Shown here in pieces: positions 10,752 to 55,847 of a stretch of 64,000 nt of DNA; position 1 is the first letter of the stretch; every line of letters starts with the position of its first letter. Location: NCBI RefSeq assembly GCF_014203325.1, contig NZ_JACHIV010000001.1, forward strand, positions 4,961,501 to 5,025,500, given 5' to 3'. A program made the position numbers and the translations under genes. The notes beneath the pieces are model-generated. The model did not search any database. It worked only from the letters and a program-made list of their open reading frames with translations, and had not been told where the DNA came from. Source of the DNA: Saccharopolyspora gloriosae (GTDB lineage Bacteria; Actinomycetota; Actinomycetes; Mycobacteriales; Pseudonocardiaceae).

Positions 10752-10973
10752 GGGTCGTTGCAGGATGATCTTTTGGTAGTTGTCTTGTCAGTGGCGAAGC
10801 TGCTGAGCAGCGACCAGCCAGAGCAAGGTGACCACCCGCGGGTTCTCAGCGGCTTCCTCGCGAGGACAGCTTTTTCCCTCGTGGCGGAGCCACTCGGGAA
10901 AAAGATCCCGCAGTGAGGAAGCCGCTGAGGTTCCGCAGAGCGACCAGCTACGCAGATCACTCTGAACGGACCC
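10752..10973 (+). repeat. Structured dispersed repeat, copy E1, with 5' GAA hairpin
   Basis: The core is 10830-10936. Constant blocks GACCACCCGCGGGTTCTCAG, GCGAGGACAGC, GATCCCGCAG and CTGAGGTTCCGC frame an outer stem (10845-10861 with 10913-10929, 16 of 17 pairs plus one G-T) and an inner stem (10870-10878 CTTTTTCCC with 10896-10904 GGGAAAAAG) topped by GTGGC/GCCAC. About 35 bp upstream is a GAA-loop hairpin (CAGTGGC-GAA-GCTGCTG). Flanks shared with copy E5 are a GATGATCTTTTG block before it and a GATCNCTCTGA block after it. It lies between the stop of the SBP56-like gene and the next gene. Confidence 0.85.
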
Positions 10974-12806
10974 TTACTTCAGATCCTCGTCCGCGACGAC
11001 GAACAGTTCGGAGTGCGGTTTGGCGTTCCCGAACGGTCCGTGCGGCCACGACTTCCGGTTGAAGTTGATGCCGGTCTCACCGGTCACTTCGTCCTTGAAG
11101 GTCTCGTCGACGCTGACCTTGCCGTCCTTGGCCAGGTCGACCATGTTGACCTTGTGGTCGCCGTCGAGCCCGGAGCGGGCCACGAAGTAGTTCGACACGG
11201 CGAGCCTGCTCGGCTGCTTGGTCTCCTCGTAGCGTCCGTCGGCGCCTTCGGTGAAGTTGTCGTAGGCGCCCCAGTGCGGTCCCGCGCCCGGCTGTCCCGG
11301 GTTGATGGGTGCCGCGCCGGCCAGCGTCGGGCAGTCCTGTCCGCCACCGTTCTCCGCCTTCTCGACGGTGTCGATGGTGCACTGGAAATCGGTCCCGGCG
11401 TTGACGATCTTGGAGATGTCCAGGGTGTAGACGCCACCGGTGGATCCGGGGTCGTCCGGCCCGAGCGCGCCCTTCTGCCGCCCCTGCACCGCGCGGTACA
11501 GCAGCTTGTCGTCCGGGCTGGTCTGGATCCAGCCGCCGTTGGAGCTGCTGCCCCTGGCGTCGTTGTTGGCCGGATCGATGGCCTTCAGCGCCTGCCCGTC
11601 GTCGAAGACCTGGGTCCAGCGCGGTGCCGGTGCGGTGATGTCCGGCGTGTAGAACACCGCGCCGCCCTGCATGGTCTGGGCGAACGCGCCCTTGTGACCG
11701 GGCAGGTTGGTGACGGTCGTTTCCATCACCGCGCGGCTCTCGGAGTGCAGCGGGTCGGCGGGGTCGGCCCGCGGCCCGTCGGGCAGGTAGGACACGGCCC
11801 GCAGCTTGGGGTGGTTGCGGTCGGAGATGTCCCAGGTCCGGACGGTCGGCCTGCGCAGGTACGGCGACGGCTGCTTGACCGGGTCCAGGATGATGTTGCG
11901 GGGTTCCGCGTAGTCACTGGTGATCAGCGTGTTCAGGTCTTCGCGGGCCTGGATGCCGTGCGGGTTGGCGCAGGTCGGCTTGCCGAGCCGCGGCAGGTTG
12001 TCGCACAGCTTCGGGTCGTCGCCCTGCGGTGTCGCCGCCGGAGATTGCGACAGCACCTTCCCGTTCGGGTCGAATCGCACGACTTCCCCGGGACTTCCCG
12101 CGAAACCATTTCCGACGTGCACGGATCCGTCGTCGTACCGGTAAGGACCGGGTGCGACGGGACCGCCCATGTAGGTGCCGTAGGAAGTGCCGTCCGACAA
12201 CGTCCAATACGCGTCCGGAACGGAACCGCCGAGCGTCTGGGTCGGCAGGCTGACGCCCTTGAGCTCCAGGTTCGGCAGTTTCGTGACGTCGAACGCGTAA
12301 GTGGCGCCGAGGAAAAGCGCACCGGCGAAGATGGTGTCGCCCTTGTGCCACACGTATTGCATGTGGTGCGGCTCGTTCTCCACCAGCGGTCCGACGGTCG
12401 CGGTGTTGACGACCTTGCCGTAGGTCTCCGAGCCCTTGGTCGCGTCGATGACGGCGAGGAAGTCGGGTCCGGGCAGCGCGTTCTTCACCTTGTCGACGGG
12501 ATTTCCGACCGAGCCGGGAAGGTTCTTCACGTCCTTGACGGCGGTGTCGGCGATGTTCTCGTCACCGGCCCACACCACCAGCCATTCCTTGCGCTTGCCG
12601 TCGGCGGCCTTGGTGGCGTTGCGGCTCACGACGTGGTTGGTGACCGAGTAGTTCTTGCCATCGGCACCCGGCACCGTGTGGGTCTTGATCTGCACATCCG
12701 CGTAGGCATCGGTATCACCGACCGGCAACGTGACGACACCGACCGCGAGCAGCGCGGCGGTCAGCCCGGTCAGTCCCTTGCGCCATGCGCGCGACTGGAT
12801 TCTCAT
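10974..12806 (-). CDS. Secreted beta-propeller, SBP56 (selenium-binding / methanethiol oxidase) related
   Basis: A 610-residue protein with a signal peptide (about 1-37, cleavage near DAYA). Several segments align by eye with the SBP56/SELENBP1/methanethiol oxidase family: EPHHMQYVWHKGDTIFAG near 146-163, then PHGIQAREDLNTLITSDYAEPRNI followed by VRTWDISDRNHPKLRAV (compare the TEWGxP...LYVWDW region of the family), and GGWIQTSPDDKLLYRAV (compare DIQISLDDRFLYV). Histidines fit a metal site, as in copper-dependent methanethiol oxidase. The ATG at 12806 has GGAGAG upstream. Neighbouring YeeE/YedE and Met-rich genes would suit volatile sulfur or selenium chemistry outside the cell. This assignment is an inference from short motifs. 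Confidence 0.55.
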   Translation of the reverse strand: MRIQSRAWRKGLTGLTAALLAVGVVTLPVGDTDAYADVQIKTHTVPGADGKNYSVTNHVVSRNATKAADGKRKEWLVVWAGDENIADTAVKDVKNLPGSVGNPVDKVKNALPGPDFLAVIDATKGSETYGKVVNTATVGPLVENEPHHMQYVWHKGDTIFAGALFLGATYAFDVTKLPNLELKGVSLPTQTLGGSVPDAYWTLSDGTSYGTYMGGPVAPGPYRYDDGSVHVGNGFAGSPGEVVRFDPNGKVLSQSPAATPQGDDPKLCDNLPRLGKPTCANPHGIQAREDLNTLITSDYAEPRNIILDPVKQPSPYLRRPTVRTWDISDRNHPKLRAVSYLPDGPRADPADPLHSESRAVMETTVTNLPGHKGAFAQTMQGGAVFYTPDITAPAPRWTQVFDDGQALKAIDPANNDARGSSSNGGWIQTSPDDKLLYRAVQGRQKGALGPDDPGSTGGVYTLDISKIVNAGTDFQCTIDTVEKAENGGGQDCPTLAGAAPINPGQPGAGPHWGAYDNFTEGADGRYEETKQPSRLAVSNYFVARSGLDGDHKVNMVDLAKDGKVSVDETFKDEVTGETGINFNRKSWPHGPFGNAKPHSELFVVADEDLK

Positions 12807-13427
12807 CTTCTCTCCGGTCTGTAACTGATTTCCACCAACGTCTCGACACCGTTTCTTCTCATTCGGACAACGGGATTCGGACACACAGGTGTCCCCACAA
12901 CCGGTTTCCCGACAGATCAGAATCGAGATGGAAACCGCTTCAGGGCACACGGGGTCACCGGACCACGCGATCGCGTTCCGGATTCGGATGGATCGACGAG
13001 CCGACGGGTCGAAATCGGATCAGGGGTGAATGCGTTCCGACTCACATTTCCCGGCTCCCGCCACCCGTTCATGCGACTGCCGATCCGGGATGGATTTCAT
13101 CCGGATCGGATGCGGGTGCGGGACATCGGAAAAGACCGCGGAATGCGTTCGCTCAGCCGGTTCGATCGCGACTGTGCGGAACCGCACCGCCGCGGCGAAC
13201 GCAGCAATCAGAAACTACGACAGAGGGCGCTGGACTGCTGCTGCAAATCTACGTGCAGCCGGACCACCAGAGTGGCGAACCTCGACATGCGCTAGATCAT
13301 GCGGCGCCTGCGCTGATGATGTCAACTGACCGACCACAGCATGAGACGGAGCCGCGAATCCCCTGCGAAAGCATTGCGAAACGGCATCCATCACCCGAAT
13401 GCGGGTACCGGCGATGAGCCAGGCGAA
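12807..13427. other. Intergenic 620 bp, no convincing gene
   Basis: Upstream of the SBP56-like gene and downstream of the dapB operon. Base composition is less GC-rich than the flanks (several ATTC, GATC and AAAT stretches). Frames open on the plus strand between 13026 and 13330 have poor codon bias and no start context. It probably holds the promoter of the secreted propeller gene. No hairpin or repeat was recognised. Confidence 0.4.
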
Positions 13428-13913
13428 CTACCGTTCCGCGTCCGGTTCGCCGCGCTGGAGTTCGATCGCCCGGCGCATCGCCTTGCGCCCGCGGTTGCGG
13501 TCCCCGGCGAGGTCGTACGCCTGCGCGAGGGCGAACCACGCCCGCCAATCGCGCGGGGACTCTTCCAGCTCCGCCTGCTTCGCCTCGAACCACTCGTCGG
13601 CGGCGTCCCGCTCCACGCGGCCGGACGGGCGGCGCGGCAGGTGCGACACGTCCGGCAGCGAGCCTTCGTCGTGCAGCAGCCGCGCGAGCCGCTCCATCTG
13701 CGCCCCGAACCGGAGCTGGTCCACGACCAGCAGCGCGCCCAGCACGGGCAGCACGAAGATCGCGACGCCGAGCGCCACGAAGATCGGCCGACCGGTGACG
13801 ATCATCGTGATCGCCCGGCCGCCCATCAGGACCAGGTACACCAGCAGCACCGCGGCGACCACGAACGCCGCGGTGCGCGGGCCGGGCCCGCGCCGCCGCT
13901 CACCGTCGGACAT
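13428..13913 (-). CDS. Two-TM membrane protein with TPR-like tail
   Basis: A 161-residue protein: a short Arg-rich start, two TM helices (about 14-34 and 44-64), and a cytoplasmic tail whose WRAWFALAQAYDLAGDRNRG...AIELQRGE reads as a single tetratricopeptide-like helix pair. The function is unknown, but proteins of this shape commonly follow dapB in actinobacteria. Its ATG lies immediately after the dapB stop codon, so the two are translationally coupled at the end of the pnp-M16-dapB unit. Confidence 0.75.
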   Translation of the reverse strand: MSDGERRRGPGPRTAAFVVAAVLLVYLVLMGGRAITMIVTGRPIFVALGVAIFVLPVLGALLVVDQLRFGAQMERLARLLHDEGSLPDVSHLPRRPSGRVERDAADEWFEAKQAELEESPRDWRAWFALAQAYDLAGDRNRGRKAMRRAIELQRGEPDAER

Positions 13914-16060
<2,147 letters not shown>

Positions 16061-16100
16061 CTTCTCCGGGTCTCGTCGCCGTACGCCCTGCCACACGATA

Positions 16101-16135
16101 CGGCCCGCCCCGGACGTGCTGTCCGGGACGGGCCG
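16101..16135 (-). terminator. GC-rich hairpin between pnp and the M16 peptidase
   Basis: CGGCCCG plus CCCGGAC pair with GTCCGGG plus CGGGCCG around a short GTGCT loop. There is no U-tract, as is common in actinobacteria. It sits 35 bp after the pnp stop and before the M16 start, so it may partly terminate or process the transcript. Confidence 0.65.
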
Positions 16136-16170
16136 CTTCGCCTCGCTGCTGATCTCAGCGATTCATCGGA

Positions 16171-18429
16171 TCACTCGGCGGGAGCTTCCGCCGGAGCCTC
16201 GGCCGGGGCGTCCTCGGCCTTCGCGGCGTCGCCCTCTTCGTCGACGACGATGAGGCTGATCTTGCCGCGGTTGTCGATGTCGGCGATCTCCACGCGCAGC
16301 TTGTCGCCGACGTTCACGACGTCTTCGACCTTGCCGATGCGCTTGCCGTTGCCCAGCTTGGAGATGTGCACCAGGCCGTCCTTGCCCGGCAGCAGCGAGA
16401 CGAACGCGCCGAACGCCGCGGTCTTGACCACGGTGCCCAGGAAGCGCTCGCCGACCTTCGGCAGCTGCGGGTTCGCGATGGCGTTGATCTTGTCGATCGC
16501 CGCTTCCGCGGACGGGCCGTCGGCCGCACCCACGTAGATGGTGCCGTCGTCCTCGATGGTGATCTCGGCGCCGGTCTCCTCGGTGATCGAGTTGATCATC
16601 TTGCCCTTCGGCCCGATGACCTCGCCGATCTTGTCGACCGGGATGGAGACCGAGGTGACGCGCGGCGCGTGCGGGCTCATCTCGTCCGGCGTGCCGATGG
16701 CCTCGTCCATGACCTCCAGGATCGTGAACCTGGCGTCCTTGGCCTGGCCCAGCGCCTGCGCCAGCACGGCCGACGGGATGCCGTCGAGCTTGGTGTCCAG
16801 CTGCAGCGCCGTCACGAACTCCTTCGTGCCGGCGACCTTGAAGTCCATGTCACCGAACGCGTCCTCGGCACCGAGGATGTCGGTCAGCGCCACGTAGTGC
16901 GTCTCGCCGTCGACGACGTCGGACACGAGGCCCATCGCGATGCCCGCGACCGAGGCCTTCAGCGGCACACCGGCGTTGAGCAGCGACAGCGTCGAGGCGC
17001 AGACCGAGCCCATCGAGGTGGAACCGTTGGAGCCCAGCGCCTCGGAGACCTGGCGCAGCGCGTACGGGAACTCCTCGCGCGTCGGCAGCACCGGCAGCAG
17101 CGCCCGCTCGGCCAGCGCGCCGTGGCCGATCTCGCGGCGCTTCGGGCTGCCGACCCGGCCGGTCTCACCGGTCGAGTACGGCGGGAAGTTGTAGTGGTGC
17201 ATGTACCGCTTGCTGGTCTCCGGACCGAGCGAGTCGATCGTCTGCTCCAGCCGCAGCATGTTCAGCGTGGACACGCCCATGATCTGGGTCTCGCCGCGCT
17301 CGAACAGCGCCGAACCGTGCGCCCGCGGCACCACGCCGACCTCGGCGGAGAGGCTGCGGATGTCGGTGAGGCCGCGACCGTCGATGCGGACCTTCTCGGT
17401 GATGATCCGCTGGCGCACCAGCTTCTTCGTCAGCGAGCGGAAGGCCGCGCCGATCTCCTTCTCGCGACCGGCGAAGGGCTGGCCCTCTTCGATGCCGGCC
17501 TTCTCCAGCGCGACCTGCTTGATCTCGTCGAGGCGGGACTCGCGCTCCTGCTTGCCCGCGATGGCCAGCGCCTGCGCCAGGTCGGCGGACACCGCGCCTT
17601 CGACGGCGGTGTAGGCGTCGTCCTGGTACGCCGGGAACAGCGGGTACTCGGCGGTGGCCTTGCCCGCGGTCTGGGCCAGCTGCTGCTGGGCCTGGCAGAG
17701 GGTGCGGATGAAGGGCTTCGCGGCTTCGAGACCGGCGGCGACGACCTCTTCGGTGGGCGCCTGGGCGCCCTGGCCGACCAGGTCGACGGTCTTGTCGGTG
17801 GCCTCGGCCTCGACCATCATGATCGCGACGTCGTCACCGACGATGCGACCGGCGACGACCATGTCGAACACCGCGCGCTCGAGCTGCTCGTAGGTGGGGA
17901 ACGCCACCCACTGCCCGTCGATCAGCGCCATCCGGGTGCCGCCGACCGGGCCGGAGAACGGCAGGCCGGACAGCTGCGTGGAGGCGGACGCGCCGTTGAT
18001 GGCGAGCACGTCGTACGGGTCCTTCGGGTCCAGGCTCATCACCGTGACCACGACCTGGATCTCGTTGCGCAGGCCGTCCACGAAGGACGGGCGCAGCGGC
18101 CGGTCGATCAGCCGGCAGGTCAGGATCGCGTCGGTGGAGGGGCGGCCCTCCCGGCGGAAGAACGAGCCGGGGATGCGGCCCGCCGCGTACATGCGCTCCT
18201 CGACGTCCACCGTCAGCGGGAAGAAGTCGAGGTTGTCCTTGGGGTGCTTGGAGGCCGTGGTGGCCGACAGCAGCATGGTGTCGTCGTCCAGGTAGGCGAC
18301 GACGCTGCCCGCGGCCTGCTTGGCCAGCCGGCCCGTCTCGAACCGGACCTCGCGGGTACCGAAGGCACCGTTGTCCAGCACCGCGGTCGCTTCGTAGACG
18401 CCTTCGTCAACGTTGTGCGCTTGTGTCAA
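16171..18429 (-). CDS. pnp: Polyribonucleotide nucleotidyltransferase (PNPase)
   Basis: The 3'-5' phosphorolytic exoribonuclease of RNA decay. The 752-residue protein has two RNase PH domains (about 10-150 and 330-560) joined by an all-helical linker, the active-site region with [17 protein letters not shown] and [19 protein letters not shown], a KH domain ([12 protein letters not shown], near 600) and a C-terminal S1 domain ([26 protein letters not shown]). It ends in an acidic-alanine tail ([13 protein letters not shown]). The start codon is at 18429, with GAGGAG upstream. It follows rpsO, the classic gene pair, separated by 235 bp that contain the rpsO hairpin. Confidence 0.98.
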
Positions 18430-18624
18430 GTGGAACTCCTCGTTTCAGGGGTCCACGGTCGCGCGGGGGACTCTTTCCGACGAGGCCGGTCATCGATCGA
18501 AGCCACCGGGCGGGTTGCCCGGAAGCCACTACCGAGGACCGGCGGATGATGACCCGCCGTGGGCGTGGACCCACATTCGTGCGCGGGCCGACAGTGGCCC
18601 GCCTTCATGCGTTCAGTTGTGCAT

Positions 18625-18657
18625 CGGGGGAGCGATCCACTGTGGATCGCTCCCCCG
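18625..18657 (-). terminator. Perfect 14-bp-stem hairpin after rpsO
   Basis: CGGGGGAGCGATCC pairs completely with GGATCGCTCCCCCG around a five-base ACTGT loop. It begins 8 bp after the rpsO stop on the minus strand and is followed by no U-run. Its place suggests a terminator or RNase III processing site limiting read-through into pnp, as known for rpsO-pnp in other bacteria. Confidence 0.75.
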
Positions 18658-18664
18658 ACTCAGG

Positions 18665-19868: not shown

Positions 19869-19935
19869 ACCGCGCAGTGTCCCAGCGCCGGGTCCGCCCG
19901 GGGAGTCCGCATCGGACGTCCGCGCCGGACGGACC

Positions 19936-20418: not shown

Positions 20419-20549
20419 CTCAGCTCCCCCGGTGCCACCGTCGAACGCCGCCACCGGAAGATCCCCGGGAGCGGCCGGTACTGAATACTGCCAGGTCGCA
20501 ACGTGCCGCCGGACCGGTTTGCGAAATTCCTCCGCCCCCACGGAGTCGA

Positions 20550-33391: not shown

Positions 33392-33612
33392 GCCTTACGG
33401 CGACGCCGCGCTGTGGGCGGCGAAGCACGCCTGCTTAGCGGCCGAAGGCCGTGCCTCGCGGCGAAGCCGTGCAGTGGGGCGGACGAAGTCCCGTCTACCT
33501 TGCGGCCGTAGGCCGTGCCTCGCGGCGAAGCCGTGCAGTGGGCGGCGAAGCCAAGCCTGCCCGGCGGCCGAAGGCCGTGCCTGTATGTGCGAAGCACATA
33601 GCCCACGTCAAA
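33392..33612 (+). repeat. Array of nine GAA-loop mini-hairpins (array A2)
   Basis: Short perfect stems with trinucleotide loops follow each other every 12-25 bases: CGGC-GAC-GCCG (33398), CGGCC-GAA-GGCCG (33439), CGGC-GAA-GCCG (33459), GGAC-GAA-GTCC (33481), CGGCC-GTA-GGCCG (33503), CGGC-GAA-GCCG (33523), GGC-GAA-GCC (33544), CGGCC-GAA-GGCCG (33565) and TATGTGC-GAA-GCACATA (33584-33600). Spacers such as GTGCCT and GTGCAGTGGG recur. The array leads straight into structured repeat E2. Stems vary in sequence while pairing is kept. Confidence 0.8.
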
Positions 33613-33617: not shown

Positions 33618-33724
33618 GACCACCCGCGGGTTCTCAGCTTCCTTCTCGCGAGGACAGCTTTTTCCCTCGTGGCGGAGCCACTCGGGAAAAAGATCCCGCA
33701 GCGAGAAGGAAGCTGAGGTTCCGC
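33618..33724 (+). repeat. Structured dispersed repeat, copy E2
   Basis: The outer stem is 33633-33649 (CTCAGCTTCCTTCTCGC) with 33701-33717, a perfect 17-bp match. The inner stem is CTTTTTCCC with GGGAAAAAG plus GTGGC/GCCAC. Constant blocks are GACCACCCGCGGGTTCTCAG, GCGAGGACAGC, GATCCCGCAGCGAG and TGAGGTTCCGC. It lies in the space between convergent genes, immediately after mini-hairpin array A2. The outer arm differs from copies E1, E3 and E4 in up to half its bases, with compensating changes in the other arm. Confidence 0.88.
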
Positions 33725-43028: not shown

Positions 43029-43100
43029 CCCGAACCCATCGCACGACGGGCCCGTCCACCCGAGACGCCAGGCCCACCAACAACGCGGCAAAGCGCCCTC

Positions 43101-43228
43101 CCGCAGCGGCGAAGCCCAGCCTCGGGCCGCGAAGCGAGCCCGCCTCGCGGCGAAGCCGTGCCTTGGGCTGCGAAGCAAGCCTGCCTGGCGGCCGAAGGCC
43201 GTGCTTGTATTCGCGCAGCGAATAGCCC
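43101..43228 (+). repeat. Array of GAA-loop mini-hairpins (array A3)
   Basis: Stems with three-base loops: GGC-GAA-GCC (43108), CGC-GAA-GCG (43128), CGGC-GAA-GCCG (43148), TGC-GAA-GCA (43169), CGGCC-GAA-GGCCG (43189) and TATTCGC-GCA-GCGAATA (43208-43224). The last has a different stem from the equivalent one in array A2 (TATGTGC/GCACATA), but is perfectly paired and followed by the same GCCCACGT block. It leads into structured repeat E3. Confidence 0.8.
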
Positions 43229-43241
43229 ACGTCCAAAAGCC

Positions 43242-43349
43242 GACCACCCGCGGGTTCTCAGTCGGTCTCTCGCGAGGACAGCTTTTTCCCTCGTGGCGGA
43301 GGCCACTCGGGAAAAAGATCCCGCAGCGAGAGACCGACTGAGGTTCCGC
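43242..43349 (+). repeat. Structured dispersed repeat, copy E3
   Basis: The outer stem is 43257-43273 (CTCAGTCGGTCTCTCGC) with 43326-43342, a perfect 17-bp pair. The inner stem is CTTTTTCCC with GGGAAAAAG, with GTGGC/GCCAC on top (one extra G in the loop). Constant blocks are the same as in E1, E2 and E4. It lies between yaaA and the DEAD-box helicase, immediately after array A3. Confidence 0.88.
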
Positions 43350-45160: not shown

Positions 45161-45227
45161 ACGACTTCGCGCGGCGGCGGAGCCTCAGCGGCTCCGCCGC
45201 CCGACGCACTGCGGAGTCCTTCAGAAT

Positions 45228-45322
45228 GATCTTTTGATCGGTGCCTCGTCAGCGGCGGGGCCGCTGAGGTTCCGCTGAGCGACCACCTGCGAAGGTCATG
45301 CTGAAACGACTCCTACGCGGAT
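45228..45322 (+). repeat. Collapsed or partial copy E5 of the structured repeat family
   Basis: It starts with the AATGATCTTTTG block shared with copy E1. A stem TCAGCGGC-GGG-GCCGCTGA with a GGG loop (45248-45267) then runs directly into GGTTCCGC, the 3' constant block. GAGCGACCA and GATCGCTCTGA blocks follow, as after copy E1. The long variable stem and inner hairpin of the other copies are missing, as if deleted. It is located between the helicase and the PPOX gene. Confidence 0.65.
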
Positions 45323-47553: not shown

Positions 47554-47736
47554 CGGATCATCGTGCCAGCCCGAGCACCCCTTCCGGGGCGAAATCTCGC
47601 GCTGCGCTGCGCCACTCCCACCGCTGCACGGGAACGGCCACCTGACGGCGATGGCGGCGGGTCGTCGAAGATCGCCGGACGTGACCTCCCCCGCTCCCGG
47701 ACCACACGAACCGTCGTCCCGTGATGAGGTGGTGGT

Positions 47737-48951
47737 GTGAGTGCGCAGCGGAAACCCGTCGACGTCGTGGGCATCGGTGCTGACGGCTGGGAAGGCCTGT
47801 CCGCGTCGGCGCGGCGGCGCGTCGAGGCGGCCGACGTCGTGTTCGGCAGCCGCCGCCAGCTCGACCTGGTCCCGCGAGGCGGGGCCGAGCACGTCGCCTG
47901 GCCGTCGCCGATGCTGCCCGCGCTGCCGGGGTTGTTCGCCGAGCACGACAGCCGGGCGATCTGCGTGCTGGCCAGCGGCGATCCCATGTTCCACGGTATC
48001 GGCGCCACCTTGGCCCGGGTGCTCGGCGCGGAGCGCCTGCGGGTGCTGCCGCACGTGTCGTCGGTGGCGCTGGCGTGCGCGCGGCTGGGCTGGGCGGAGC
48101 AGGACGCGACGGTGGTGAGCCTCGTCGGCGCGCACGCCGAGCTGCTGCACCCGGAGATCCAGCCGGGGCGGCGGCTGATCGTGCTCAGCTCCGACGCGCA
48201 CACGCCCGCGCGGGTGGCGGCGCTGCTGGTGGCCCGCGGCTTCGGCGGCAGCACCTTGGCGGTGCTGGGCGATCTCGGCGCGCCCGAGGAGTCCCGGGTG
48301 GACGCGACGGCGGCCCGGTGGCCGCACCCGGAGGTGCCGGCGCTGAACGTGATCGGCGTGCACTGCGCGGCCGACGCCGACGCCGAACGCAGGCCGCGCA
48401 CGCCGGGCCTGCCGGACTCGGCGTTCCAGCACGACGGGCAGCTCACCAAGCGCGACGTCCGCGCGCTCACGGTGGCCCGGCTGGCGCCGGCGCCCGGTGA
48501 GCTGTTGTGGGACGTCGGTGCGGGCGCCGGTAGCATCGCGATCGAGTGGATGCGCTGCGACCCGGCGAACCGCGCGGTCGCGATCGAGCACCGCGAGGAC
48601 CGGGCGGCCCGCATCACGACGAACGCGATGACCCTCGGCGTCCCCGGCCTGAGCGTGGTCGTCGGCGCGGCGCCGGAGGCGCTGGACGGCTTGGACGCGC
48701 CCGACGCGGTGTTCGTGGGCGGTGGCGCGACCGCCCCGGGAGTGCTCCAACGCTGCTGGGACGCGCTGCGGCCGGGAGGCCGCCTGGTGGTGAACGCGGT
48801 GACGATCGAATCGGAGGTTCTGGTGGCGGACTGGTACGCCCGCTGCGGCGGTGAGCTGGTGCGGATCGCGGCGGAGCACGCTTCGCCGGTGGGCGGTTTC
48901 ACCGGCTGGCGGCCCGCGATGCGGATCACCCAGTGGACGGTGACCCGATGA
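47737..48951 (+). CDS. cobL: Precorrin-6Y C5,15-methyltransferase (decarboxylating), CobL
   Basis: Catalyses two methylations and a decarboxylation of the corrin ring. The 404-residue protein fuses CbiE (about 1-210: VVGIGADGWEGL, VLASGDPMFHGIGATL, LPHVSSVALACARLGW) with CbiT (from about 235: DVGAGAGSIAIEWMRCDP is the SAM-binding motif). GTG at 47737 begins the family start. It overlaps cobM by 4 bp. No cobalamin riboswitch was recognised in the 180 bp before it. Confidence 0.95.
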   Translation: MSAQRKPVDVVGIGADGWEGLSASARRRVEAADVVFGSRRQLDLVPRGGAEHVAWPSPMLPALPGLFAEHDSRAICVLASGDPMFHGIGATLARVLGAERLRVLPHVSSVALACARLGWAEQDATVVSLVGAHAELLHPEIQPGRRLIVLSSDAHTPARVAALLVARGFGGSTLAVLGDLGAPEESRVDATAARWPHPEVPALNVIGVHCAADADAERRPRTPGLPDSAFQHDGQLTKRDVRALTVARLAPAPGELLWDVGAGAGSIAIEWMRCDPANRAVAIEHREDRAARITTNAMTLGVPGLSVVVGAAPEALDGLDAPDAVFVGGGATAPGVLQRCWDALRPGGRLVVNAVTIESEVLVADWYARCGGELVRIAAEHASPVGGFTGWRPAMRITQWTVTR

Positions 48952-49691
48952 CGGTGCACTTCATCGGAGCCGGTCCCGGCGCCGCCGACCTGATCACGGT
49001 GCGCGGGCGGGACGTGCTCGCCGCCTCCCCCGTCTGCCTGTACGCGGGCAGCCTGGTCCCGGTGGAGCTGCTGGAGCACTGCCCGGACGGCGCGCGGCTG
49101 GTCGACACGGCGAACCTGAACCTGGACGAGATCCTCGCCGAGCTGGTCGCCGCGCACGAGGCGGGCCGGGACGTGGCTCGGCTGCACTCCGGTGATCCGT
49201 CGGTGTTCAGCGCGGTCGCCGAGCAGATGCGCCGCCTCGACGCGGCCGGGGTGCCCTACGACGTGGTGCCCGGCGTGCCCGCGTTCGCCGCCGCCGCGGC
49301 GACGTTGAAGCGCGAGTTCACCGTGCCCGGCGTCGGCCAGACCGTGGTGCTCACCCGCACCTCGAAGCAGGCCACGCCGATGCCGGAGGGCGAGGACCTG
49401 GCGACGCTCGGCCGCAGCGGCGCGACGATGGTGCTGCACCTCGCGGTGAACCGGATCGAGGCGCTCGTCGAGGAGCTGGTGCCGAACTACGGGGCGGACT
49501 GCCCGGTGGCGGTCGTCGCCGGGGCGAGCCGCGCCGACGAGGTCGTGCTGCGCGGCACCCTCGCCGACATCGCCGACTCGGTGCGCGCCGCCGGGATCAC
49601 CCGCACCGCGGTCGTCGTGGTCGGCGAGGTCCTCACCGCCGCCACCTTCCCGGACAGCCACCTGTACTCCACCACCCGCTGCCGCAGCTGA
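48948..49691 (+). CDS. cobM: Precorrin-4 C11-methyltransferase
   Basis: Methylates C11 in aerobic corrin synthesis. The 247-residue SAM-dependent enzyme has VHFIGAGPGAADLITVRG at the start, ARLHSGDPSVFSAVAEQM near 80, VVPGVPAFAAAAATLKREFTVPG near 105, and the trailing GTLADIADSVRAAGITRTAVVVVG. ATG at 48948 overlaps the cobL stop by 4 bp. It ends the first half of the cobalamin genes; the rest lie 11 kb away. Confidence 0.95.
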   Translation: MTVHFIGAGPGAADLITVRGRDVLAASPVCLYAGSLVPVELLEHCPDGARLVDTANLNLDEILAELVAAHEAGRDVARLHSGDPSVFSAVAEQMRRLDAAGVPYDVVPGVPAFAAAAATLKREFTVPGVGQTVVLTRTSKQATPMPEGEDLATLGRSGATMVLHLAVNRIEALVEELVPNYGADCPVAVVAGASRADEVVLRGTLADIADSVRAAGITRTAVVVVGEVLTAATFPDSHLYSTTRCRS

Positions 49692-49715
49692 CCGACCACG
49701 ACGGGTGAGGATCGC

Positions 49716-50273
49716 TTGATCGACGTCGTCGCACCCGTCAAGACCGATCGCCTGTCGCTGCGCCCGTTCGCCGAGCGCGACGTGGCGGACGTGTTCGCCT
49801 TCGAGTCGCTGCCGGAGGTGGCCCGCTACCTGTACAACGAGCCCCGCACCTCGGAGGAGTGCGCGGCCCTGGTGGCGGAGCGCGCCGAGCGGACGTCGCT
49901 GCGCGCGGAAGGCGACAGCGTGGTGCTCGCCGTCGACCTGCACGGCACGGTGATCGACCACGTCTCGCTGGCCTGGCTCAGCGAGCAGCACCGCCAGGGC
50001 GCGTTCGGTTTCGTCCTGCACCCCGGTCACCAGGGCCGCGGCTACGCGACGGAGGCCGCCGCGGAGATGCTGCGGATCGGTTTCGACCGGCTCGGCCTGC
50101 ACCGGATCATCGGTCGCTGCGACACGCGGAACACGGGTTCGGCCGGGGTGATGGAGCGCCTCGGCATGCGCTTGGAGGCGCGCTTCGTGGAGTCCGAGAT
50201 CTTCAAGGGCGAGTGGGGCGGCGAACTCCACTACGCGATGCTCGCGGCCGAGTGGCGCGCCTCCGCACGGTGA
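49716..50273 (+). CDS. GNAT N-acetyltransferase (RimJ/RimL-like)
   Basis: A 185-residue RimJ/RimL-type acetyltransferase: TDRLSLRPFAERDVADVF start, FVLHPGHQGRGYATEAAAEML acetyl-CoA loop near 105-125, NTGSAGVMERLGMRLEA and a GEWGGELHYAML end. TTG at 49716 follows GGGTGAGG with suitable spacing, so this rare start is accepted. It lies 25 bp after cobM and may be read through from it, but the accessory genes begin here. The target is unknown. Confidence 0.85.
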   Translation: MIDVVAPVKTDRLSLRPFAERDVADVFAFESLPEVARYLYNEPRTSEECAALVAERAERTSLRAEGDSVVLAVDLHGTVIDHVSLAWLSEQHRQGAFGFVLHPGHQGRGYATEAAAEMLRIGFDRLGLHRIIGRCDTRNTGSAGVMERLGMRLEARFVESEIFKGEWGGELHYAMLAAEWRASAR

Positions 50274-50310
50274 ATCCGGGCCGAGCGGCGAATCCGGGCG
50301 GCCCGATCGC

Positions 50311-50820
50311 TCAGGTGAGCCGGTCGAGGGCGGGGCACTCGGAGTCGAGGATGTTGCGTTCCAGGCGTTCGAGGGTGCCCAGCACGGCGGTCTGCTCGTC
50401 GGCGGAGAGGTCGCTGGTGGTGGCTCGTTCGAGTTCTTCCCACATCCGCTCGACCCGGTCGCGCAGCGCGAGCCCGGCCGCGGTCGCTTCGACGAGCACG
50501 ACCCGCCCGTCCTGGTCGCTGCGGGTGCGGCGGACGAACCCGGCGCGTTCCAGCCGCTGCACGGTGCGGGTCATGGTGGCGGAGTCGGAGCCGAGCACGT
50601 TGATCAAATCGGTCTGCCGTTGCGTGCCGGTGTTCCACAGGTGCATCAGCAGCAGTTCCTGACCGGGGTGCAGGCCGCAGCCGCGCAGGAGCTGACCGGC
50701 GAACATCCGGTGCAGCCTGGCGAGCCGGAACAGCGCGTGGCTGACCGGCCCGGCGGTGGCGAAGCACGGCGGCACGATCTCCTCCGACGCGGGCACCGCG
50801 CAGCTCGGCGACTCGGCCAT
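50311..50820 (-). CDS. MarR family transcriptional regulator
   Basis: A 169-residue winged-helix regulator: the recognition part is QTDLINVLGSDSATMTRTVQRLERAGFVRRTRSDQDGR (residues about 77-115) with the wing RVVLVEATAAG. A leading alpha-helix with GLHPGQELLLMHLW fits MarR dimerisation. Two cysteines near residues 8 and 20 (PSCAVP, PPCFAT) might sense redox, as in NemR-like factors. It diverges from the ene-reductase gene across 173 bp that contain a palindrome (50948-50967), its probable operator. ATG at 50820. Confidence 0.9.
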   Translation of the reverse strand: MAESPSCAVPASEEIVPPCFATAGPVSHALFRLARLHRMFAGQLLRGCGLHPGQELLLMHLWNTGTQRQTDLINVLGSDSATMTRTVQRLERAGFVRRTRSDQDGRVVLVEATAAGLALRDRVERMWEELERATTSDLSADEQTAVLGTLERLERNILDSECPALDRLT

Positions 50821-50947
50821 CGCGCCCCTTCCCCGTGAAGCTGACTGGTCAGTGAATGAACTCTCCACGATAACCGACCGGGCACCACCCCTCCGAAAGC
50901 TGTGATGAGCACTGCAGAAATCCCGCCGCGGGAAGATCTCGGGCGAT

Positions 50948-50967
50948 TTAGCTGTTCGGACAGTTAA
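50948..50967. promoter_or_regulatory. Likely MarR operator between the regulator and ene-reductase genes
   Basis: TTAGCTGT and ACAGTTAA form an imperfect inverted repeat (7 of 8 positions match) around TCGG. It lies about 25 bp before the ene-reductase start and well placed to block its transcription. The assignment rests on position and symmetry only. Confidence 0.5.
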
Positions 50968-50993
50968 CCGCGCCCCCTCCGGGAAGGATCACC

Positions 50994-52058
50994 ATGCCCA
51001 CCGCGTTCGATCCGCTCGACCTGGCCGGAACCCGACTGCGCAACCGCATCGCGATGGCCCCGATGACTCGCAGCCGCGCCGCCGGGAACCTGCCCGACGA
51101 GTCCACGACCACCTACTACCGGCAGCGCGCCACCGCCGGGCTGATCATCACCGAAGGCGTGCAGCCGTCGGTGCGCGGCCAGGGGTACCCGTCGACACCC
51201 GGCCTGCACAGCGACTCCCAGGTGGCCGCGTGGCGGAAGGTCACCGACGCGGTGCACGCGGAAGGGGGCGTGATCTTCGCGCAGCTGATGCACGCGGGGC
51301 GCATCAGCCACCCGAGTTCGCTGCCGGACGGGCGACCGCCGCTCGGCCCCTCCGCGGTCGCCGCGGAAGGCCGGATCTTCACCGCCGACGGCATGCGGGA
51401 CCTGATCACTCCGGAGGAGCTCACCGAGGACGGCATCGCCGAGGTCATCGCCGAATTCGCCGCCGCCGCCCGCAACGCCGTCGACGCCGGGTTCGACGGC
51501 GTCGAGCTGCACGGCGCGAACGGCTACCTGCTGCACCAGTTCCTGTCCGACAACGCGAACCTCCGCACCGACGGCTGGGGAGGGTCGGTCGGAGGACGCA
51601 TCCGCCTCACCGTCGAGGTCGCCCGCGCGGTGGCGGCGGCGATCGGTTCGCGCCGGGTGGGCCTGCGGATCTCCCCCGGCTCCGGCTCCAACGACATCGT
51701 GGAGCACGCGGTGGCCGAGTCGTACTCGGCGCTGATCGACGCGATCAACCCGCTGCACCTGGCCTACCTGCACGTGCTGGAGAGCCCGGACCGGGGTCTG
51801 ACGCTGCGGTTGCGCGACCGGTTCGACGGCGCGTTCCTGCTGAACCCGCACACCCCCGGCCGCCAGACCGGCACGGCGGACCTGCCGCTGGTCGAGCAGG
51901 GCGTCGCGGACGCGCTCACCTTCGGCTCGCTGTTCCTGGCGAACCCGGACCTGCCGGCGCGGCTGGCCGCGGGCGGCCCGTTCAACACCCCCGATGCCGC
52001 CACCCTCTACGGCGGCGGCGACCACGGCTACACCGACTACCCGCCCCTGGCGGCCTGA
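50994..52058 (+). CDS. Old yellow enzyme family alkene reductase (NemA-like)
   Basis: FMN-dependent reductase of activated C=C bonds, nitro compounds or electrophiles. The 354-residue TIM barrel starts MPTAFDPLDLAGTRLRNRIAMAPMTRSRA, has FAQLMHAGRISHPSS with the barrel histidine region, FDGVELHGANGYLLHQFLSDNANLRTDGWGG near 165-195 with the substrate-binding H/N pair and Tyr, and the C-terminal ALTFGSLFLANPDLP strand. Gene orientation opposite a MarR regulator suggests induction by electrophiles. A second oxidoreductase gene follows. Confidence 0.95.
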   Translation: MPTAFDPLDLAGTRLRNRIAMAPMTRSRAAGNLPDESTTTYYRQRATAGLIITEGVQPSVRGQGYPSTPGLHSDSQVAAWRKVTDAVHAEGGVIFAQLMHAGRISHPSSLPDGRPPLGPSAVAAEGRIFTADGMRDLITPEELTEDGIAEVIAEFAAAARNAVDAGFDGVELHGANGYLLHQFLSDNANLRTDGWGGSVGGRIRLTVEVARAVAAAIGSRRVGLRISPGSGSNDIVEHAVAESYSALIDAINPLHLAYLHVLESPDRGLTLRLRDRFDGAFLLNPHTPGRQTGTADLPLVEQGVADALTFGSLFLANPDLPARLAAGGPFNTPDAATLYGGGDHGYTDYPPLAA

Positions 52059-52088
52059 CCCCGGCCGACCAGCGAACAGGAGACCACA

Positions 52089-52529
52089 ATGGACGGAAAC
52101 GCGATCACCGCGGAGTTCGCCGATCGGTTCAACTCGCCGATCATCGAGGAGTTCCGCGCGAACGGCGGGCAGGTGGGCGGCGAGCTCGCCGGAACGCCGA
52201 TCCTGCTGCTGCACAACGTGGGCGCGCGCAGCGGCGCCACCCGCGTCAACCCGATGGCGTACGTGGAGCACGAGGGCCGCTACCTGGTGCTCGCCTCCAA
52301 GGCCGGGGCTGACGCGCATCCCGCCTGGTACCACAACTTGAAGGCGAATCCGGACGCCGTCGTCGAGGTCGGCACCGAGACGCTGCGGGTCCGCGCCGAG
52401 GAGCTCACCGGCGCCGAACGGGACGCCCGCTACGCCGAAGCGGCGGCGGCGTTCCCGGTCATGGCCGAGCACCAGAGCAAGACCGACCGGGTCATCCCGA
52501 TCATCGCCCTGACGCCCACCGGCGGCTGA
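52089..52529 (+). CDS. Deazaflavin (F420)-dependent nitroreductase-family protein (DDN-like), copy 1
   Basis: A 146-residue DDN-family split-barrel protein: EFRANGGQVGGELAGTPILLLHNVGARSG at the start, then YVEHEGRYLVLASKAGADAHPAWYHNL and a C-terminal TDRVIPIIALTP strand. It is homologous over most of its length to the gene at 54337, the second copy. F420 binding is a family trait. It is probably co-transcribed with the ene-reductase (30 bp gap). Confidence 0.92.
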   Translation: MDGNAITAEFADRFNSPIIEEFRANGGQVGGELAGTPILLLHNVGARSGATRVNPMAYVEHEGRYLVLASKAGADAHPAWYHNLKANPDAVVEVGTETLRVRAEELTGAERDARYAEAAAAFPVMAEHQSKTDRVIPIIALTPTGG

Positions 52530-52537
52530 ACGACCGG

Positions 52538-52563
52538 GCGGGCGCCCCCGCGCGGGCGCCCGC
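52538..52563. terminator. Hairpin between DDN copy 1 and the TetR gene
   Basis: GCGGGCGCCC pairs with GGGCGCCCGC around CCGCGC, directly 9 bp after the stop of the deazaflavin-dependent gene. It may separate the ene-reductase transcript from the TetR gene. Confidence 0.55.
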
Positions 52564-52605
52564 CGCGCGGACGGATAGCGCGGAGCGGGGCCGTACACTG
52601 CGCGC

Positions 52606-53202
52606 ATGGCTGAGCGGCTTTCCACGAGGGAGATCTCCCGGCGAGCGGTCCGCCAGAAGATCGAGTCCGTGGCGATGGAGTTGTTCCTGGAGAAGGGCTT
52701 CGACGCCACGACCGTCGACCAGATCGCCGCCGAGGCGGGGATCTCCGCGCGCAGCTTCTTCCGCTACTTCCCCACCAAGGAGGACGTCGTCATCGGCGAC
52801 CCGGTGGAGTACGGCACCGTGCTGCGGGATGCGCTGGAAGCCCGCCCGGCCGAGGAGGACGCCGTGCACGCGGTGCGCGGCGCGCTGGTGGAGTTCATCG
52901 GCGCGGTGGCCGAGAACCCGGCGGCGGTGGGCATCTCGACGATCGTGCTGACCACGCCGTCGCTGTGGGCCAAGCACCAGGAGAAGCAGCGGGTGTGGGC
53001 GGAGCTGTTGCAGCCCGAGACCCTGCGCCGCCTGGGCGGCGCCCCGCACCCGGAGCTGCTGGCCACGGCGATCCTGGAGTCGGCGTTGGCGACGTTCCAC
53101 GCGAGCCTGATGCACTGGGCTTCCCGCGATGGCAACGACGACCTGCACGAACTGTTCCGGTTGGCGACGGCGGCGACGGCGGGGACACCACCCTCGACGT
53201 GA
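52606..53202 (+). CDS. TetR family transcriptional regulator
   Basis: A 198-residue regulator: RQKIESVAMELFLEKGFDATTVDQIAAEAGISARSFFRYFPTKEDVV is a standard TetR HTH at about 18-65. The ligand domain is all helical with VEFIGAVAENPAAVGISTIVLTTP and WAELLQPETLRRLGG. It stands just upstream (76 bp) of the SDR gene in the same direction, with an inverted repeat in the gap that is its most likely operator. It may regulate itself and the SDR-DDN-SDR genes. Confidence 0.92.
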   Translation: MAERLSTREISRRAVRQKIESVAMELFLEKGFDATTVDQIAAEAGISARSFFRYFPTKEDVVIGDPVEYGTVLRDALEARPAEEDAVHAVRGALVEFIGAVAENPAAVGISTIVLTTPSLWAKHQEKQRVWAELLQPETLRRLGGAPHPELLATAILESALATFHASLMHWASRDGNDDLHELFRLATAATAGTPPST

Positions 53203-53217
53203 CAGTTACCGTCGAAC

Positions 53218-53268
53218 TTGACAGCTACTGACGTGTTTAACATACACTGCCAGAACATCGTCTGGCAG
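53218..53268 (+). promoter_or_regulatory. Probable promoter plus TetR-type operator before the SDR gene
   Basis: TTGACA (53218-53223) and TACACT (53243-53248, spacing 19) form a plausible promoter. A perfect 8-bp inverted repeat CTGCCAGA / TCTGGCAG with a six-base gap lies at 53247-53268, overlapping the expected start site and ending about 10 bp before the ATG. This suits repression by the adjacent TetR protein. Confidence 0.5.
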
Positions 53269-53277
53269 GAGTTGCTC

Positions 53278-54219
53278 ATGTCCCTCATCACCACCCCCTT
53301 CGGTTCGAGCACCACTGCGGACGAGGTCGCGGCCGGCCACGACCTCACCGGCAAGCGCGCGGTCGTCACCGGAGCCGCCTCCGGGATCGGCGTCGAGACG
53401 GCCCGCGCGCTCGCCCGCGCCGGAGCGGAGGTCACCATCGGCGTCCGCGACCTGGCCGCGGGTCGCGCCGCCGCCGACGACATCGGCGCGACCACCGGTG
53501 CCGAGGTCCGGGTCGCCGAACTCGACCTCCTCGACCTCAACGGCGTGCGCCGATTCGCCGCCGAGTGGCGCGGACCGCTGCACCTGCTGATCAACAACGC
53601 CGGCGTGATGGCCGTGCCGGAGCTCCGGCGCACCCCCGAGGGCTGGGAGCAGCAGTTCGCCACCAACCACCTGGGCCACTTCGAGCTGGCCACCGGCCTG
53701 CACGCGGCGCTCGCCGAAGCCGGGGGCGCGCGGATCGTCGCGGTGTCCTCCAGCGGTCACCACGCCTCGCCCGTCGTGTTCGACGACCTGCACTACGAAC
53801 GCCGCCCCTACGACCCGTGGAGCGCCTACGGGCAGTCCAAGTCCGCGAACGCGCTGTTCGCGGTGGAGGCGACCCGGCGCTGGAGCGGCGACGGGATCCA
53901 CGCCAACTCGCTGATGCCCGGCGGGATCATGACCGCCCTCCAGCGCCACATCCCCGCCGAGACCCGCGCCGAGTGGTCCAGGGCACCGATGCTGAAGACC
54001 CCGCAGCAGGGCGCCGCCACCTCGCTCGTCGCGGCGCTCGCCCCCGAATTCGCGGAGATCGGCGGGAAGTACCTGGAGGATTGCGCGGAGTCACCGGTCA
54101 TCGCCGACGACGCCGAGACGACCCCCGTGAGCGGCGGTGTCCGGCGGTGGGCGCTGGACCCGGAGGCCGCCGAACGGCTCTGGGAGGTCTCGCGGCGGCT
54201 GCTCGACGACGCGGCCTGA
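53278..54219 (+). CDS. Short-chain dehydrogenase/reductase, copy 1
   Basis: A 313-residue NAD(P)-dependent SDR: TGAASGIGVETARALARAGAEV cofactor motif near 25-50, the NNAGV motif near 105, catalytic SSSGHH and YGQSKSANALFA (YxxxK) near 155-190. It resembles the long-type, WWOX/retinol-dehydrogenase-like SDRs (YxxxK with SKSANALF). The start ATG at 53278 follows CAGGAG. It is upstream of the second DDN gene (118 bp gap). Confidence 0.92.
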   Translation: MSLITTPFGSSTTADEVAAGHDLTGKRAVVTGAASGIGVETARALARAGAEVTIGVRDLAAGRAAADDIGATTGAEVRVAELDLLDLNGVRRFAAEWRGPLHLLINNAGVMAVPELRRTPEGWEQQFATNHLGHFELATGLHAALAEAGGARIVAVSSSGHHASPVVFDDLHYERRPYDPWSAYGQSKSANALFAVEATRRWSGDGIHANSLMPGGIMTALQRHIPAETRAEWSRAPMLKTPQQGAATSLVAALAPEFAEIGGKYLEDCAESPVIADDAETTPVSGGVRRWALDPEAAERLWEVSRRLLDDAA

Positions 54220-54336
54220 GATCTCCGGCGCGCCCGGTGATCTCGGACGCTGGGACCTGTTCCCCAGGGGCACCTCCGTTCCCTAGTCTCGACGCGTTTG
54301 ATCTTCATCAGCACGACCGCAGGAGGAGCACGTCCA

Positions 54337-54771
54337 GTGGAGGGGAACGAGATCACCGCGACCGCGGCGGCGCGCTTCAACGCCCCCGTGATCGCGAAGT
54401 TCCGGGCGAACGGCGGCCTGGTGGGCGGAACCTTCGCCGGGATTCCGCTGCTGCTGCTGCACAGCACCGGCGCCCGGACCGGCCGCGACCACCTCACGCC
54501 GTTGGCGTACCTGGAGCACGAAGGCCGCTACCTGGTGTTCGCCTCGAAGGCGGGCGCCGACATCCACCCCGACTGGTACTTCAACCTGAAGGCCAATCCG
54601 GCCGCCCGCATCGAGATCACCACCGACGTCGTCGACGTCCGCGCCCACGAGCTCATCGGGGTGGAGCGCGACATCAGGTTCGCCCAGATGACGGGCCTGT
54701 TCCCGTACTTCGCCGCGCACCAGGCGAAAACGGAGCGCGTCTTCCCCGTGCTCGCCCTCGCCACCGGCTGA
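54337..54771 (+). CDS. Deazaflavin (F420)-dependent nitroreductase-family protein (DDN-like), copy 2
   Basis: A 144-residue paralogue of the gene at 52089 with matching RFNAPVIAKFRANGGLVGG, YLEHEGRYLVFASKAGADIHPDWYFNLKANP and HELIGVERDIRFAQM segments. About half of the residues appear identical by eye. GTG at 54337 follows AGGAGG by 10 bases and starts at the family position. It lies between two SDR genes. Confidence 0.92.
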   Translation: MEGNEITATAAARFNAPVIAKFRANGGLVGGTFAGIPLLLLHSTGARTGRDHLTPLAYLEHEGRYLVFASKAGADIHPDWYFNLKANPAARIEITTDVVDVRAHELIGVERDIRFAQMTGLFPYFAAHQAKTERVFPVLALATG

Positions 54772-54863
54772 TCCCGGCGAGAGTCGCGCAGCGGTACCGC
54801 GGGAGCCGCGCGGTTGCTCTACTCGATGGGCCGGGGGATCGCGCGAGGAAAGGAGAGCTCCGC

Positions 54864-55607
54864 ATGGCTCAGCCGCTCGCAGGGAAGTCGGCGCTGGTGA
54901 CCGGCGGGTCGCGCGGGATCGGCGCGGCCATCGCCCGCCGCCTCGCCGAGCACGGCGCCGCCGTCGTGATCACGCACTCGAACTCGGCGGAGGCGGCGCG
55001 GCGAGTGGCCGCCGGGATCAGCGCCGACGGTGGACGCGCGGTGGCCGTGCGCGCGGACGCCGGGGTGCCCGAGCAGGTCCGGGCCGCGGTCACCCGCGCC
55101 GTCGAGGTGTTCGGCGGCTTGGACGTCCTGGTCAACAACGCCGCGACGGTCGCCACCGGTGTGCTCGACGAGTTGTCGCTGGAGGAGTTCGACCGGGCGC
55201 TGTCGATCAACGTCCGCGGGCCCTTCGTCGCCATCCAGGAGGCGTCGAAGCACCTGCCGGACGGCGGGCGGATCATCAACATCGGCACCTCGATGGTCGA
55301 GCACAACCCGTTCACCGGGAAGCTCGCGTACGTCACGAGCAAGTCCGCCCTCGCCGGGCTCACCCGCAGCGCCGCCCGCGACCTGGCATCGCGCCGGATC
55401 ACCGTGAACAACGTCCAGCCCGGCGCGATCGACACCGCGCTGAACCCGGCCGACGGCCCCCGCTCGCACGTGCTGCAGGCCATGATCCCGCTGGGCCACT
55501 TCGGCACCGGCGAGCAGATCGCGAGCCTGGTGGCCCACCTCGCGAGCCCCGAAGCCGACTACATCACCGGAGCCACGATCAACGCCGACGGCGGCTACGC
55601 CACTTGA
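54864..55607 (+). CDS. Short-chain dehydrogenase/reductase, copy 2 (FabG-like)
   Basis: A 247-residue classical SDR: TGGSRGIGAAIARRLAEHG near 13-31, NNAATVATG near 90, the catalytic IGTSM and YVTSK near 140-158, NVQPGAIDTALN near 182 and a final GATINADGGYAT. This is the 3-oxoacyl-ACP reductase-like pattern, with NADP preference likely from the Arg after the glycine motif. GAAAGGAG precedes the ATG. It ends the redox gene cluster; the substrate is unknown. Confidence 0.93.
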   Translation: MAQPLAGKSALVTGGSRGIGAAIARRLAEHGAAVVITHSNSAEAARRVAAGISADGGRAVAVRADAGVPEQVRAAVTRAVEVFGGLDVLVNNAATVATGVLDELSLEEFDRALSINVRGPFVAIQEASKHLPDGGRIINIGTSMVEHNPFTGKLAYVTSKSALAGLTRSAARDLASRRITVNNVQPGAIDTALNPADGPRSHVLQAMIPLGHFGTGEQIASLVAHLASPEADYITGATINADGGYAT

Positions 55608-55689
55608 GCTCCGCCCGTCCTCCGTCCTGCTCTAGGGGGTGGCGGAACCTCGCGGGCTGTCCTTTCCAGGTGAGCCGCGTTCGTGGTCG

Positions 55690-55847
55690 TTGTCCTGTCA
55701 GCGGCGAAGCCGCTGAGCAGTGACCAGCTTGAGCAAAACGACCACCGGCGGGTTCTCAGCGGCCTTCTCGCGAGGACAGCGATTTCGCCGTGTATCGGAC
55801 ATACATCAGAAATCGATCCCGCAGCGAGAAGGCCGCTGAGGTTCCGC
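55690..55847 (+). repeat. Structured dispersed repeat, copy E4, with 5' GAA hairpin
   Basis: The core is 55740-55847. The outer stem 55755-55771 (CTCAGCGGCCTTCTCGC) pairs perfectly with 55824-55840. The inner stem is different from the other copies: CGATTTC (55780-55786) with GAAATCG (55809-55815) instead of CTTTTTCCC/GGGAAAAAG, and the apical TGTAT/ATACA replaces GTGGC/GCCAC. Constant blocks GACCACC, GGGTTCTCAG, GCGAGGACAGC, GATCCCGCAGCGAG and CTGAGGTTCCGC are kept. Upstream at about 55700 is CAGCGGC-GAA-GCCGCTG. Confidence 0.88.

Follow-up and report, generated by a model that had tools for sequence, protein, structure and literature searches.

The window analysed here is a stretch of 64,000 nucleotides of the Saccharopolyspora gloriosae genome (assembly GCF_014203325.1, contig NZ_JACHIV010000001.1, positions 4,961,501 to 5,025,500 of the forward strand), and our subject is a nested hairpin of ~100 nt that recurs in it. 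This genome, hereafter G000, is a single contig of 6,825,909 bases. A sequence-only reading of the window had described four copies of the hairpin, all in the same orientation, which share constant blocks and differ in their outer stem. Those copies and the quoted blocks were all borne out, on the plus strand at 10830-10936 (copy 1, outer stem type CGGCTTC, 126 bits), 33618-33724 (copy 2, CTTCCTT, 127.6 bits), 43242-43349 (copy 3, TCGGTCT, 121.9 bits) and 55740-55847 (copy 4, CGGCCTT, 112.7 bits), the last with the alternative inner stem that had been described for it.

The hairpin is a real and specific structure. A two-block pattern matched the window exactly four times and none of 100 shuffles, and each of the four copies folds 7.3-7.7 standard deviations better than shuffled sequence. 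Within the genus, the constant parts are GCGGGTTCTCAG, CTCGCGAGGACAGC, GATCCCGCAGCGAG and CTGAGGTTCCGC (the third block reads CTCCCGGAG in genome G240), and the variable part consists of 7-8 base pairs between CTCAG and CTCG. When 26 copies from G000 were compared, 99.7% of the cells in the proposed fold paired and 13 pairs varied on both sides, a level met by 1 of 500 shuffles; neither the 500 shuffles nor six slid structures ever reached the covariation score of 0.284. The matching changes in the two stem arms, first noticed in the window, were thus confirmed.

Exact pattern matches gave at least 298 copies in G000, 140 forward and 158 reverse, so that the common orientation remarked on in the window holds for its four copies and not for the genome. 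The five genomes of the same GTDB genus that were compared (G001 to G005) contain 106, 187, 106, 13 and 13 exact matches; G018, from another genus, contains 51, two more genomes have one each, and any match at all was obtained in 9 of 41 genomes. A covariance model built from 26 copies and run on relatives, as the sequence-only reading had proposed, found matches in 66 of 249 family genomes and 14 of 46 genera (E 0.001, up to 15 matches scored per genome). Among the matches listed, the named records belong to Saccharopolyspora, Actinopolyspora, Halopolyspora, Saccharomonospora and Prauserella and, weakly, Labedaea; other named matches listed, some of them from unrelated phyla, may be due to chance. 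The copies of G018 are sorted by strand between chromosome halves, 22 of 26 in the first half being on the minus strand and 22 of 25 in the second half on the plus strand. In the G000 contig, dnaA was not among the first six called genes (genes were called throughout with a home-made codon-usage caller, on which all counts of gene context are based).

Upstream of the main hairpin lies a small hairpin with a GCGAAGC-like loop, which comes in two kinds: type I is TGTCAGCGGCGAAGCCGCTGAGCAG, and type II, TATGTGCGAAGCACATAGCCCACG, closes an array of mini-hairpins. Of the G000 copies, 119 were readable in context, from stretches partly picked for known copies; 65 of these are of type I, 50 of type II and 4 unclear. 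In the window, always on the plus strand, the small hairpin of copy 1 (hp1, with a GCGAAGC loop) occupies 10786-10810 and that of copy 4 55696-55720, both belonging to type I units, and the type II hairpins of copies 2 and 3 occupy 33582-33607, at the end of a mini-hairpin array with pattern matches at 33437, 33501 and 33563, and 43206-43231, where the stem has changed along with its partner. The arrays that precede these type II copies (about 33400-33607 and 43100-43231) are made of mini-hairpins of ~20 nt whose loops are of the GAA type (GCGGCCGAAGGCCGTGCC and similar) and whose arms also co-vary by eye. A complete unit would run, in order, through a terminal repeat, the small hairpin, a linker, the nested main hairpin, a tail and a second terminal repeat.

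Site 1 holds such a unit entire. It is of type I, measures 224 bp (10750-10973, plus strand) and bears at its ends the inverted repeats GGGGGTCGTTGCAGGATGATCT and AGATCACTCTGAACGGACCC, copies of a terminal inverted repeat (TIR) that we call TIR-1: the left one (10750-10771, plus) departs from TIR-1 by 3 mismatches and the right one (10954-10973, minus) by 2 mismatches over 20. The nearest relative, G001, is ~94-96% identical around the site, lacks the insert (length difference -227) and holds a single TTA at the empty site. In G000, the TTA at 10974-10976, right after the unit, is the stop codon of a minus strand gene. Site 4 is likewise a type I unit (about 55653-55886, plus strand, the putative ends placed by eye against other units), with decayed ends resembling a second repeat, TIR-2 (GTGCCTGTCTTTGAAC), which was recognised by aligning left against right flanks. 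The TCA beside it (55887-55889) is the stop codon of a minus strand open reading frame (ORF, 55887-56693), and GGCGGAACC at 55641-55649 looks by eye like the remnant of an older copy. The count of four hairpins left out a fifth element on the plus strand, a hairpin-less relic at about 45213-45313 (45.7 bits, ends read by eye). It is bounded by TIR-1-like repeats at about 45213-45232 and 45293-45313 and contains one CTGAGGTTCCGC block (45264-45275); the 152 bases at 45161-45312, which span it, correspond to 21 bases in G002. At the remaining two sites, copy 2 has a counterpart with a CTGTCTT stem in G001, no copy being detected there in G002 and G003, and copy 3 has orthologs with CTGTCTT in G001 and TTGGTCT in G002.

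Both terminal repeats belong to full insertion sequences (ISs) as well. In G002, TIR-1 bounds an IS of ~0.9 kb. Each of the three copies read is flanked on either side by TTA or TAA (a fourth copy is known from repeat positions alone), and the encoded protein is an IS5-family transposase (NF033580 IS5, E 1.5e-68; Pfam DUF4096 and DDE_Tnp_1). G240 contains at least 219 TIR-2 ends at up to one mismatch. Ten hairpin units of 231-233 bp were read in this genome, all with near-perfect repeats, nine of them flanked by identical TGA or TCA and one (L365) by TGA and TCA; three ISs of 962-963 bp share the TIR-2 ends with these units, and the one TIR-2 IS of this genome that was checked encodes an IS5-family transposase (NF033580, E 6.9e-59). 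G240, G005 and G000 also have shorter units, devoid of the main hairpin, and in the G240 units L385-L388, of 284-338 bases, the arms of the outer stem contain an extra GC-rich insert, which might be a further small element. There are, then, at least two sets of terminal repeats, each in common with a full IS5-family IS in a relative.

On the sequences compared, we propose, with a probability of roughly 0.82, that what recurs here is the conserved core of non-autonomous miniature inverted-repeat transposable elements (MITEs), a family of Saccharopolyspora and other Pseudonocardiaceae whose complete members are ~200-235 bp long. IS5-family transposases would move the units in trans, and the remaining window copies would descend from such units whose ends have decayed. 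A mobile hairpin had been among the possibilities raised by the sequence-only reading, and it is supported by the TIRs common to IS5-family ISs, by the 3-bp duplications of a TNA target, present at complete units and at the ISs alike, and by the element-free sites in relatives.

A different form of mobility would be that of the repetitive extragenic palindromic (REP) sequences and their REPIN combinations, palindromes moved through single-stranded DNA by a Y1 tyrosine transposase (RAYT). High copy number, intergenic position, an imperfect palindrome and the strand sorting by chromosome half in G018 would all suit such a system, but terminal repeats with TNA duplications suit a DDE transposase, and Y1_Tnp (PF01797) was found in none of G000-G003, which have 106-298 matches each, and was present in G004 and G005, which have 13 each. 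The Y1 route is largely refuted for the genus of the window, and we consider it highly improbable as an explanation of the repeats. A retroelement product was also rejected as a candidate, reverse transcriptase (PF00078) being found in one of six genus genomes, and not in G000; the match is in G001 (L292, G001:C22; E 1e-12).

Traces of the terminal repeats were found in G000 itself: at up to 2 mismatches it has 17 TIR-1 ends, 13 of which were read as loci, and at up to 1 mismatch it has 13 TIR-2 ends, 6 of them read as loci. Among the 65 type I copies, TIR-1 lies to the left of 8 and to the right of 6, with 0.45 expected on each side from scrambled motifs, and at both ends of 4 (up to 6 mismatches; shuffled flanks gave no left match). 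TIR-2 (up to 5 mismatches in 17) lies to the left of 11 and to the right of 11, with 0.6 and 1.0 expected, and at both ends of 3. Local alignment of the flanks of 299 copies gave mean scores that were nearly equal for real and swapped pairs in all three groups, and it was only a small top tail (score of at least 24), made up of 3 of the 95 type I, 2 of the 98 type II and 4 of the 106 other copies, that pointed to the repeats. In 73 site-by-genome comparisons with G001, G002 and G003, a detectable copy was present in 31 and none in 42.

The core may itself act as a landing site for new insertions. In G240, TIR-2 ends stand directly after GGAACC-TNA, which is the hairpin block CTGAGGTTCC read in reverse, in 17 exact cases and in 31 at up to one mismatch, and seven of the eight TIR-2 ISs listed in this genome sit in the CTGAG motif of a hairpin, both junctions having been read for three of them. 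Five TIR-2 ends occupy GGAACC-TNA in G017. The evidence for such a role of the core thus concerns TIR-2 only, and genomes other than G000.

The outer stem has a history of its own. Of 31 occupied comparisons between orthologous sites, 27 passed the filters, and these 27 readable pairs come from 21 G000 sites and are therefore partly non-independent. The stem was identical in one pair and different in 26, with both copies fully complementary in 19 of the 26; arm positions differed at 158 of 432, against 16 differences over 648 positions of the constant end blocks. In two of the pairs the copy is inverted in G002 (sites 1765905 and 4389979). Some stem types are common to several genomes, for example CGGCTTCC, and others abound in a single one: TTGGTCTC accounts for 10 of 30 copies in G002 but for none of the 119 of G000 (Fisher p 2.8e-8), and TCGGTCTC for 11 of 119 in G000 and for none of the 14 G001, 30 G002 and 9 G003 copies read. 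Within G000, stem type showed no linkage to the tail (z -0.6), weak linkage to the left linker and to the A/G core variant (z 2.2 each) and a z of 5.7 with the upstream type. We conclude that stems have been replaced as whole units between copies, one outer stem giving way to another type with its arms staying matched, and that between related species this turnover is fast enough for a site seldom to keep its stem. The simplest and most likely route would be gene conversion between copies, and a second would be a nested insertion at CTGAG, after which the sequence between the repeated blocks is deleted.

Since stems are swapped whole at orthologous sites, covariation within a genome is by itself no proof of selection. 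The argument of the sequence-only reading, that compensatory change implies selection on structure, is therefore unsafe as stated, because whole-stem replacement could yield much of the covariation. The arms might alternatively have been matched by mutational template switching between the two arms of each quasi-palindrome, rather than by copying between loci, and arms are indeed perfect in 90 of the 117 readable G000 copies (in five of the 117, at least three pairs are non-standard, in some cases as though one arm alone had been replaced). Yet template switching should erase the conserved mismatched blocks of the hairpin (GGTTC/GGTTC and the internal loop) and leaves unexplained the presence of one type at many sites of one genome, as seen for TTGGTCTC, so we regard it as an unlikely source of the matching.

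Independent evidence about selection on the fold comes from features other than the matching of the arms. Of 230 copies, 29 were set aside for having arms other than 12 and 11 letters. Outside G000, 91 distinct arm pairs with no more than two non-standard pairs contained 66 G·T against 6 A·C mismatches, 28 of the 66 G·T being at one position; the G·T excess is not explained by a C>T bias, of which the constant blocks give no sign (4 C>T and 29 G>A changes). Within G000, the G·T to A·C ratio was 9:9 over 117 copies (3:1 among distinct pairs, a smaller set), and recent changes accordingly favour neither mismatch. In other genera, where many of the loci were found by patterns requiring some of the blocks, strong conservation is seen both in the internal-loop blocks and in the GGTTC/GGTTC mismatches, even though such mismatches should be lost through replication errors that repair quasi-palindromes. 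Together, the conservation of the loop blocks and the G·T excess outside G000 suggest that the fold itself is probably under selection. The strand implicated by the excess is the sense strand, in the form of RNA or of single-stranded DNA, and a terminator transcribed from the opposite gene would fit this poorly.

These same observations bear on the possibility that the repeat is in the first place a structured small RNA or a cis-acting RNA under selection, its transposon ends being secondary. The core blocks are conserved across genera, with the search biased towards them, and the 66:6 ratio seems to favour a sense-strand fold; against this stand the even ratio in G000, the concentration of so many G·T mismatches at one position and the fact that presence of the element is polymorphic between genomes. 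We hold an RNA origin of this kind to be doubtful, if less so than any other alternative considered here.

As the sequence-only reading had put it for the window, the repeats lie between genes: none of the 119 G000 copies is wholly inside a called gene. In 88 of the 119, the gene on the 3' side points at the element, and the distance from its stop codon to the hairpin is no more than 50 nt in 84 of the 88 and 28-46 nt in 75. Convergent genes flank 44 copies and divergent genes 7, and in tandem gene pairs 44 are antisense and 22 sense. Stop codons of the form TGA or TAA, whichever strand they are on, may serve as the TNA target, the duplication then restoring the codon, so that copies would gather directly behind genes. 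In agreement with this, all 12 listed right repeats that face a stop (stops within 60 nt of the hairpin) end -1 to 7 nt from it, as expected where the target takes in the stop codon and duplication restores it. Copies without visible ends would mostly have arrived in the same way, via the TNA target.

A GC-rich hairpin 28-46 nt from an opposing stop codon would also suit a role as the neighbouring gene's intrinsic transcription terminator, and a terminator or processing element had indeed been suggested. But copies are more often antisense than sense to their tandem neighbours, the wobble that is tolerated belongs to the other strand (though at 9:9 in G000), no T-run stands beside the hairpin in the sequences read, and the site 1 unit lies between the stop codon and a native hairpin, the latter being found in copy-free G001 too. 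A role as terminator for the adjacent gene is accordingly disfavoured, and we judge it very unlikely.

Several results weigh against the MITE interpretation and have to be set beside the evidence in its favour. Most type I copies of G000 are without recognisable terminal repeats, and in its type II copies such repeats occur at or near the chance level given by scrambled motifs, so that the MITE origin of all these copies rests on shared anatomy. Among the G000 loci listed, no TIR pair stands at the spacing of an IS, in a genome where IS5 transposase was not searched for. The left flank of site 1 reads TTC (10747-10749), which is presumably an altered copy of the TTA duplication. Some of the 42 copy-less comparisons represent decayed copies rather than empty sites, and junctions were often blurred in the presence/absence alignments, the readable ones being those of site 1 (by eye) and 1773086. 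As for the landing site, no TIR-2 end was found in GGAACC-TNA in G000, and none of the three TIR-1 ISs read in G002 is in a hairpin core, one being in a mini-hairpin array, one beside a decayed unit and the third unclassified. Finally, the 44:22 imbalance between antisense and sense copies is unexplained by the TNA target rule alone.

A more far-reaching version, which we offer tentatively, is that the core might be a functional module kept by selection on the folded sense strand, independently of the ends that carry it. Its CTNAG landing site would direct new insertions to old copies, sparing the genes, and the outer stem would be homogenised in each genome into private types, leaving related species with different stems at shared sites.

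In an industrially important genus, the MITE interpretation explains the presence of several hundred intergenic repeats. It suggests a mobile family that inserts at stop codons, and in some genomes into its own hairpin, at low cost to the host. The repeats also provide a natural case in which strong covariation within a genome may stem largely from whole-stem replacement, which calls for caution when structured RNAs are discovered from repeats.

The repeat had been said to fit no named family, and this view still holds: no Rfam family matches it, and no description of it was recognised in the literature searched, which covered few subscription papers and only top listings. At the curated threshold, Rfam matched none of the hairpins of the window, and a permissive scan of eight loci gave two weak matches, both below gathering scores. 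The single window match at the curated threshold was the Actino-pnp RNA (RF01688, 67.9 bits) at 18485-18543 on the minus strand, just 5' of an ORF at 16171-18429 that is a putative pnp.

Among known systems, the REP palindromes are alike in being numerous intergenic hairpins, some of which are landing sites for ISs (PMC1525189, PMC3733652). An association with REPs is described for members of the IS3, IS110, IS4, IS256 and IS5 families, and for ISNm1106 (IS5) it was seen in 4 of 7 copies and in 7 of 14 (PMC1525189). REPs measure 20-40 bp, whereas the present hairpin spans ~100 nt, is nested and forms part of a unit with terminal repeats. The absence of Y1 transposase matches from the copy-rich genomes G000-G003 further separates the two. 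The MITEs of IS5-family ISs are closer, and by the features compared the repeat is a family of this kind, since they too are short, too small for a transposase gene, bounded by TIRs common to a full IS, flanked by a short duplication, present in high copy number and intergenic. Unlike them, the present units contain a large nested hairpin, the core of which is conserved across genera and recurs in units with different terminal repeats, and their outer stem is swapped between copies. Another large structured dispersed repeat is bcr1 of the Bacillus cereus group, which, like the repeat described here, combines a long fold with high copy number and an intergenic position.

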